NCBI GenBank assembly: GCA_023266845.1
Contig: JAHFPH010000015.1
Coordinates: 1-39,167, forward strand
Length of the DNA: 39,167 bases
Direction of reading: 5' to 3'
From: Rhodospirillaceae bacterium
GTDB lineage: Bacteria; Pseudomonadota; Alphaproteobacteria; JAEULC01
Below the pieces are notes generated by a model. That model had not been told where the DNA came from and did no database searches. It saw only the letters and a program-made list of their open reading frames with translations. A program made the translations under genes and the position numbers. How positions within the stretch are numbered: the first letter of the stretch is position 1; each line of letters starts with the position of its first letter. Shown here one piece after another: positions 4,091-30,388 of this stretch.

Positions 4091-4176
4091 TGGTGCCCAG
4101 GAGAGGACTCGAACCTCCAAAACCTTGCGGTCACAGGTACCTGAAACCTGCGCGTCTGCCATTCCGCCACCTGGGC
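4091..4176 (-). tRNA. tRNA-Leu (anticodon CAG), CCA encoded
   Basis: Read on the minus strand, the acceptor GCCCAGG (from 4176) pairs with CCTGGGC and is followed by discriminator A and an encoded CCA (4093-4091). The anticodon arm is CAGGT, loop TTCAGGT, ACCTG, giving anticodon CAG (reads CUG). There is a class II variable arm, and the T-loop TTCGAGT is present. Length is 86 nt including CCA. Confidence 0.95.
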
Positions 4177-23874: not shown

Positions 23875-24237
23875 ATGGCACGCGTCAAACGGGGCGTCAC
23901 CGGCCACGCCCGGCACAAGAAGGTTTTGGACCTCGCGAAAGGCTATCGCGGCCGGTCCAGCAAGGCCTATCGCGTCGCGCTGGAAAAGGTCGAAAAGGCG
24001 CTGCGCTACGCCTATCGCGACCGGCGCAACAAGAAGCGCGATTTTCGCGGCCTGTGGATCCAGCGCATCAACGCCGGCGCCCGCGAGCACGGCCTGACCT
24101 ATTCGCGGCTGATGAACGGCATCAAGAAGGCGGGCATCGAGATCGACCGCAAGGTGCTGTCGGATTTGGCGGCGCGCGAGCCCGATTCGTTCAAGGCGCT
24201 GGTGGAAAAGGCCAAATCTGCCCTGCAAGCGGCCTGA
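23875..24237 (+). CDS. rplT: 50S ribosomal protein L20
   Basis: 120 aa, the usual length. It begins [20 protein letters not shown] and includes [40 protein letters not shown] and [21 protein letters not shown]20 is needed early in 50S assembly and is the known autorepressor of this operon in other bacteria. An AAGGGGG ribosome site precedes the start. Confidence 0.98.
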
Positions 24238-24265
24238 AACGGCCCGATTCCAGGGGCTTATCGCA

Positions 24266-24294
24266 TTGACCGGCATCGGGCGCGGACCTTATAG
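24266..24294 (+). promoter_or_regulatory. Promoter of the pheST leader
   Basis: TTGACC (24266-24271), a 17-nt spacer, then TTATAG (24289-24294). This is one of the best sigma-70 matches in the window. Start near 24301 puts about 30 nt before the leader-peptide ATG. Confidence 0.65.
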
Positions 24295-24330
24295 TCCCCG
24301 CGCCCGATCGCTTTAGGGACCGGTTTCGCC

Positions 24331-24429
24331 ATGCGCCTCAGCGTATTCGTCTTCGTTCCCGGCCGATTTACCGCCTGCATAACGGCACCGCCCGCGCATC
24401 GGCGCATGGGCCGGTTGGCGCTGGACTGA
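24331..24429 (+). CDS. pheST leader peptide (PheM-like), 32 aa
   Basis: A short reading frame directly after the predicted pheST promoter. It begins [13 protein letters not shown], with Phe codons at 24346, 24352 and 24367, and ends at TGA 24427. The Phe codons are clustered but not consecutive, unlike E. coli PheM. The stop codon falls in the loop of a hairpin (24413-24424 with 24432-24442, one bulged G). Translation of the leader would sense charged tRNA-Phe and set the fate of the terminator before pheS. There is no clear Shine-Dalgarno sequence before the ATG, which lowers certainty. Confidence 0.5.
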
Positions 24430-24442
24430 ATCCGGCGCAACC
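24413..24442 (+). promoter_or_regulatory. Leader hairpin around the leader-peptide stop codon
   Basis: GGTTG(G)CGCTGG (24413-24424) pairs with CCGGCGCAACC (24432-24442) with one bulge and one G-T pair, leaving the loop ACTGAAT that contains the stop TGA. A ribosome finishing the leader would melt it. This fits a pause or protector hairpin of an attenuator. Confidence 0.45.
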
Positions 24443-24455
24443 GCGCGAAGGGGAC

Positions 24456-24491
24456 GGGGCCGGAAATCGCTTTCGGCCCCTTTTCGTTTTT
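24456..24491 (+). terminator. Rho-independent terminator (attenuator) before pheS
   Basis: GGGGCCG(G)AAA pairs with TTTCGGCCCC around the loop TCGC (24456-24480), followed by TTTTCGTTTTT (24481-24491). It sits 18 nt before the pheS start and downstream of the leader peptide, so it can only act by attenuation of pheST (or as the rpmI-rplT terminator). Confidence 0.8.
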
Positions 24492-24508
24492 GGACGGACC
24501 TGTTTTCG

Positions 24509-25588
24509 ATGAACGACGTTGAAACCTTGAAAAGCAAATGGCTCGGCGCGGTCCGGGCGGCCGGCGATCTGGCGGCGCTGGAGAATTTGCGCGTCGAGGC
24601 CCTGGGCAAGAAGGGCGAGGTCAGCGGGCTGATGAAGACGCTGGGGTCTGCCCCAGCCGAGGAGCGCAAGGCGCTGGGCGCGGCGTTCAATGCCCTTAAA
24701 GACGAAGTCGCGGCGGCGATCGAGGCGCGCAAGGCGGACCTGGGCGACGCGGCGCTGGACCAGAAGCTCGCCGCCGAGCGCCTGGATGTGACCCTGCCGG
24801 CGCGCCCGGAGCCCGAGGGCAGGCTGCACCCCATCTCGCAGACCATCGACGAGGTCGTGGCGATCTTCGGCGCGATGGGTTTCAAGGTCGCCGAAGGCCC
24901 GGACATCGAGGACGATTTTTACAACTTCACGGCTCTCAACATCCCGCCCGAGCATCCGGCGCGGCAGATGATGGACACGTTCTATCTGCCCGAGCGCCAG
25001 GACGGCTCGCGCCTGGTGCTGCGCACCCACACCTCGCCGGTGCAGATCCGCACCATGCTGAGCCAGAAGCCGCCGATCCGCATCATCGTGCCGGGCCGCA
25101 CCTATCGCAGCGATCACGACATGACGCACACGCCCATGTTCCATCAGGTCGAGGGGCTGGTGATCGACAAGACCACGCATATGGGCCACCTGAAGGGGTG
25201 CCTAGCCGATTTCTGCCGCGCCTATTTCGAGCTGCCCGACGTGCCGGTGCGCTTCCGCCCCAGCTTCTTTCCGTTCGTCGAGCCGGGAGCGGAAATGGAT
25301 ATCGGCTGCTCGCGCAAGGGCGGGGAACTCAAGATCGGCGCGGGCGACGATTGGCTCGAGATTCTGGGCTGCGGCATGGTGCATCCCAAGGTGCTGCGCC
25401 ATTGCAATCTCGATCCGGCCGAATACCAGGGCTTCGCCTTCGGCATGGGGATCGAGCGCGTGGCGATGCTGAAATACGGCATCCCCGATTTGCGCACCTT
25501 CTACGAGGCCGATCTGCGCTGGCTCAGGCATTACGGCTTCCTGCCGCTGGAAGCGCCGAGCCTCGTGCGCGGGCTGTCGCCGTCATGA
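24509..25588 (+). CDS. pheS: Phenylalanyl-tRNA synthetase alpha subunit
   Basis: 359 aa. The N-terminal coiled coil (about 1-85) is followed by the class II catalytic core. It contains [13 protein letters not shown], motif 2 [20 protein letters not shown], the glycine-rich [10 protein letters not shown] and motif 3 [18 protein letters not shown]. PheS and PheT form an alpha2-beta2 enzyme that charges tRNA-Phe. The stop overlaps the pheT start by 4 nt (ATGA), consistent with coupled, equimolar synthesis. It is controlled by the attenuator upstream. Confidence 0.97.
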
Positions 25589-30298: not shown

Positions 30299-30388
30299 GG
30301 ACGGGTGGCCGAGCGGTTGAAGGCGCACGCTTGGAAAGCGTGTTTACGGGAAACCGTAACGTGGGTTCGAATCCCACTCCGTCCGCCA
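30299..30388 (+). tRNA. tRNA-Ser (anticodon GGA), CCA encoded
   Basis: Acceptor GGACGGG (from 30299) pairs with TCCGTCC (G-T at the last pair), discriminator G, encoded CCA to 30388. Anticodon arm CACGC, loop TTGGAAA, GCGTG gives GGA (reads UCC and UCU). The long variable arm is typical of tRNA-Ser. A weak promoter candidate, TTGCCG at 30237 with CTAGTG at 30260, precedes it. Confidence 0.96.

Follow-up and report, generated by a model that had tools for sequence, protein, structure and literature searches.

The rplT-pheS spacer of the 39,167-nucleotide stretch of Rhodospirillaceae bacterium DNA analysed here (the window) appears to hold a divergent representative of a conserved family of leaders, which would control pheST by ribosome-mediated transcription attenuation; we put the probability of this reading at about 0.7. 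The leader family itself looks sound, the window copy being less certain. For the family, the attenuator reading is supported by conservation, by the reading frame, by the co-occurrence of the parts and by predicted switching. We infer translation of the leader peptide, its response to phenylalanine and the working of the window copy, whose frame is 36 nt longer.

The elements of the window locus are collected in Table 1. The promoter, the 32-codon frame with its three Phe codons (codons 6, 8 and 13), the hairpin with the stop codon in its loop and the terminator with a T-run close to pheS had been pointed out in a first-pass annotation, and each was found in the sequence. The promoter was the sole sigma-70-like site detected by a scan of 1.3 kb (shuffle mean 0.1), and the leader RNA would be predicted to start from it near 24302. 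In the stop-codon hairpin, 24412-24425 is paired with 24431-24443 and the stop lies inside the loop CTGAA. The terminator stem (24456-24480) comprises 10 pairs and is followed by TTTTCGTTTTT. Because the gap between this T-run and pheS is 17 nt, pheS transcripts from either upstream promoter must cross the terminator.

Table 1. Features of the rplT-pheS region of the window
Feature	Position	Strand	Basis or remark
rplT (ribosomal protein L20)	23875-24237	+	
Sigma-70-like promoter, TTGACC (24266-24271), N17, TTATAG (24289-24294)	24266-24294	+	Consensus match
Leader peptide frame, 32 codons and TGA	ATG 24331, TGA 24427-24429	+	Homologues of the frame at 29 loci in another order
CGA-TTT-A heptamer (Arg12-Phe13), presumed regulatory codon	24364-24370	+	Invariant core of the family
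In-frame 36-nt (12-codon) stretch, putatively not part of the family leader	24373-24408	+	Family comparison
Region 1, 5' arm of the stop-codon hairpin	24412-24425	+	
Region 2, after the stop codon; UCCGGC (24431-24436) pairs with region 3 (antiterminator) or region 1	24431-24443	+	
Intrinsic terminator GGGGCCGGAAATCGCTTTCGGCCCC with T-run TTTTCGTTTTT; its 5' arm is region 3	24456-24491	+	
pheS, the regulated gene, with pheT next downstream	24509-25588	+	

Two other observations concern the window. CGATTT (24364-24369) is the exact complement of AAATCG (24465-24470) in the terminator loop; no such complementarity was seen in the family leaders compared by eye, and the pairing has the wrong polarity for classical control. 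An Rfam scan of the window detected two tRNA genes, at 4094-4176 (-) and 30299-30385 (+).

Chance expectations for the window leader were estimated from dinucleotide shuffles of 24238-24455. A frame of 8-40 codons with three Phe within 8 residues arose in 1.2% of them; CGATTTA occurred in 4%, and in frame of an ORF in 0.4%. The folding of the whole window leader was not unusually good (z -1.55). On the window sequence by itself, the case for an attenuator is moderate, and the strong evidence for the leader is comparative rather than drawn from single-sequence statistics.

The family was uncovered from two genomes of one order (G060 and G174) by collecting the loci of their families. A conserved pheS leader was present in 29/37 loci of this order, which is not that of the window. 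CGATTTA and the terminator were both found in these 29 loci and both missing from the remaining 8, and no locus carried one alone. The family leaders directly follow rplT, and an internal promoter of the window type is not conserved there; the frame often overlaps the rplT stop or begins directly after it. The peptide consists of Met, 3 to 11 residues, R-F-(T/S/I/R), a few residues and the stop, which is reached 6-8 or 11 codons from CGA. All 29 leaders encode Arg-Phe as CGA TTT, with A as the following base. The codon to which this A belongs varies (ACC, ACG, AGC, ATC, AGT, AGA, ATA), its first base never. In the pheS genes of the same genomes, CGA makes up 3.6% of the Arg codons and TTT 15% of the Phe codons. 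All of the 27 family peptides contain at least one Phe, and 20 of the 27 exactly one.

Downstream of the frame, the stop is immediately followed by GGCCCC or a variant (GCCC or GGCTC within 14 nt, counted from the first base of the stop, in 27/29), and a GGGGCC...GGCCCC-T terminator precedes pheS in 29/29 leaders. Read in the CGA-TTT frame, 26 of 28 leaders reach their first stop beside GGCCCC; read in the other two frames, none does (0 and 0). GGCCCC has two possible pairing partners, the terminator 5' arm and a CGGG just 3' of the heptamer. In a permutation test (p 0.01), the fit of region 2 to region 3 was better within a locus than between loci. In the covariance model, the covariation term of the terminator is small because its sequence hardly varies. 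The region 1:2 hairpin of the family was slightly better than shuffles (mean z -0.78).

Palindromic repeats were also seen between rplT and CGATTTA in several loci (L056 and its identical counterpart L165, as well as L167, L178, L180, L237 and L239), for example CTCTCCCCG...CGGGGAGAG and GGTCATCCCG...CGGTATGACA. They extend or re-start the leader frame, which stays unbroken.

The proposed control would operate as follows. The family leader peptide is 10-20 codons long, and its one invariant slow pair is CGA-UUU (Arg-Phe). Under a shortage of charged tRNA-Phe, the ribosome would halt at this pair and cover region 1 (ACCGNCGGG), leaving region 2 (GGCCCC) to pair with the terminator 5' arm (GGGGCC) and permitting read-through into pheST. 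When Phe is abundant, the ribosome would reach the stop codon and cover region 2, and the terminator would form. It would also form when no ribosome is present, regions 1 and 2 then being paired with each other. The choice of CGA and TTT fits a his-leader assay in which CGA strongly stalled ribosomes and NNU codons were mostly slower than NNC codons (PMC4046918).

Since equilibrium folding of the full-length RNA always favours the terminator, stalling was simulated by folding the RNA before the terminator 3' arm exists, the bases covered by the ribosome being removed. Over 25 leaders, from which the window and the family member L182 were left out, neither of them switching in this simulation, the antiterminator probability was 0.24 for ribosome-free RNA, 0.93 for a ribosome halted at TTT and 0.39 for one at the stop. 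The corresponding values for shuffled leaders were 0.14, 0.27 and 0.34. Switching was optimal at codon offsets 0 to +2 relative to TTT.

A covariance model of the family (R1), built without the window sequence, was then the basis for placing the window copy. Its best match in the window genome was the window leader itself (24340-24491, 38.1 bits, with a rough E-value of 2.1e-7). This score exceeded that of every listed class and phylum match other than the pheS leaders of the leader-bearing order (best 36.4). The best matches outside pheS leaders (G691, G567, G471) had no CGATTTA nearby, and those found before pheS in G075, G004 and G027 were terminators only, likewise without CGATTTA.

In the window, CGA-TTT-A lies in frame, the stop precedes region 2 and the terminator precedes pheS, as in the family. 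Region 2 reads UCCGGC where the family has GGCCCC and begins one base after TGA. The first-pass annotation had identified no convincing antiterminator pairing; one does exist, right after the stop codon, between 24431-24436 and 24459-24464, and no other of the 27 region 3 sequences suits the window region 2 as well as its own (GCCGGA). The expectation that the Phe codons are conserved held for Phe13, which lies in the family core G-R-F-T, but not for Phe6 and Phe8. Without 24373-24408, the window peptide would end in RFTGRLALD before the stop, resembling the family endings RFTGRQSG and RFTGGTL, and the frame stays open across these extra 36 nt. Two features occur in the window genome alone, the internal promoter and the extended C-terminal half of the peptide. 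We regard membership of the window leader in the CGATTTA family as most likely.

As for switching, region 1 of the window is located about 40 nt downstream of Phe13, and the region 2:3 pairing at the Phe stall had a probability of 0.00 in the folding simulation. Pairing at longer range, by 24384-24389, would work for each of the three Phe codons but did not exceed chance: a stall-minus-stop difference at least as large was reached by 16% of shuffles. In silico removal of the 36-nt stretch did not restore switching. The earlier proposal of a pheM-like Phe attenuator is supported for the leader family, but switching was not seen by simulation in the window copy. This failure, even in the shortened RNA, is what would be expected if the family were a real attenuator and the window copy had decayed or been re-purposed, or if its CGATTTA were due to chance; the copy would then act as a partial terminator, constitutive and without Phe response, that has a promoter of its own. 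The frequencies of CGATTTA in shuffles and the congeners described below, which lack the element, point the same way. Against it stand the open frame over the extra stretch, a region 2 that is still the best partner of its own terminator arm, and the rank of the window leader as best model match in its genome. Taken together, we hold such a loss of function in the window to be rather unlikely.

The window's genus was represented in the genome set by four genomes, and the set had no others from its family or order. The leader was absent from all three congeners (G001, G002 and G003). In G002 and G003, another gene fills the rplT-pheS gap, where neither terminator nor CGATTTA occurs; in G001, the end of that same gene directly precedes pheS and the contig stops before rplT. 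The leader frame is thus not conserved within the genus, since the congener gaps hold another gene or its end. The first-pass annotation had named loss of the frame or of its Phe codons in relatives as an outcome that would refute its reading, and the comparison gave a divided answer: the frame is absent in the congeners, whereas CGATTTA, the stop and the terminator recur in another order. In a PheS tree, the window stood separate from the leader-bearing order, the deep support being weak. With the window apart in so weakly supported a tree, the distribution may reflect shared ancestry followed by losses, transfer or, with lower likelihood, chance.

The gene in the congener gap (L082 in G003, L084 in G002, L152 in G001) encodes a small, possibly lipoprotein-like product, with the C-terminal pattern ...NNRQT..VALE..DGQPQ..GALGLLMMQLE. 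A similar gene was noticed in L014 and L063.

The wider survey covered about 150 alphaproteobacterial loci, of which 127 have rplT at most 400 nt from pheS. A strong terminator lies inside the gap in 57 of these 127, and most of the gaps concerned are too small for a leader frame. Such a background would suit a plain rpmI-rplT terminator in the window, its hairpin and T-run leaking into pheS without any leader-peptide switch. However, in the window the terminator is separated from rplT by a promoter-like site and a frame, and in the family the frame and the terminator are gained or lost together and region 2 matches the terminator arm; a plain terminator consequently seems improbable to us. 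Across the survey, k-mer enrichment over all 152 spacers yielded chiefly terminator words. CGATTTA was spotted by eye in several long-leader loci and is common to the window, at 24364. Among 80 named relatives, the Phe-rich frames proved to be terminator T-runs that give Phe codons, pieces of rplT or scattered frames lacking a common pattern. The distance from terminator to pheS is often just 15-60 nt, so that in many cases pheST transcription must cross the terminator.

The heptamer might also be an RNA or DNA motif, CGAUUUA, bound by a factor rather than a codon pair. The A after TTT is indeed invariant though the third residue may be Thr, Ser, Ile or Arg, which a bound motif would explain; but the frame relation of heptamer, start codons and stop is kept, and slow codons such as CGA and TTT are what control would be expected to use. 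We consider a bound motif slightly less probable again than a plain terminator. Finally, a small RNA of about 185 nt made from the promoter-terminator unit, in place of a pheST leader, is very improbable: the promoter-like site and the terminator do flank such a unit, but the family leaders have no space for a promoter of their own and the window T-run lies just 17 nt from pheS.

Returning to the attenuator reading, the closest known system is the E. coli pheM-pheST attenuator (Rfam Phe_leader, RF01859). Both lie between rplT and pheS, both have a short leader frame with Phe codons and a region 2 directly after the stop, and both place a terminator before pheS. Under a like protocol, the same switch was predicted for pheM (0.03 with no ribosome, 0.63 at the stall and 0.20 at the stop, values in which any pairing of the terminator 5' arm with upstream sequence is counted). 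The peptide and the RNA are nevertheless unrelated to those of E. coli, as the first-pass annotation had stated for the peptide. Whereas pheM has five Phe codons, the family usually has one, within the invariant CGA-TTT-A; and the family terminator is close to pheS, that of E. coli about 220 nt before it. The Rfam Phe_leader is modelled on enterics. At its gathering score, RF01859 had no match in the window or in 8 family loci, and no Rfam family matched the leader in these sequences. Other alphaproteobacteria have plain rplT terminators ahead of pheS; these share the gap and the presence of a terminator, but mostly leave no room for a leader frame and have no CGATTTA upstream.

As in the trp, his and ilv attenuators of proteobacteria and Actinobacteria (PMC1262725, PMC1183508), the position of the ribosome would select between mutually exclusive hairpins. 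Those attenuators use runs of control codons, in contrast to the mostly single codon of the CGATTTA family. In theory, many regulatory codons are important for sensitivity and few make a poor sensor, and a one-codon attenuator is predicted to be insensitive or poorly expressed (PMC1183508); it is for this reason that the family is of interest. Tentatively, and with slightly less than even confidence, we propose that at least one alphaproteobacterial order, probably two, senses Phe-tRNA charging by a single invariant slow pair, CGA-UUU followed by A, instead of a Phe run, and that a constraint at the nucleotide level may set the pause. Attenuation of pheST has been named for gammaproteobacteria (PMC1262725). 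The CGATTTA leader family in alphaproteobacteria is apparently undescribed, no account of it being found in a literature search that did not extend to the 2004 FEMS survey of proteobacterial attenuators. Phe-controlled attenuation of pheST would thus be extended, with an unrelated leader, beyond the gammaproteobacteria of the literature found, and the family would offer a natural one-codon attenuator in which the slow CGA-UUU-A is possibly a way round the insensitivity expected in theory.
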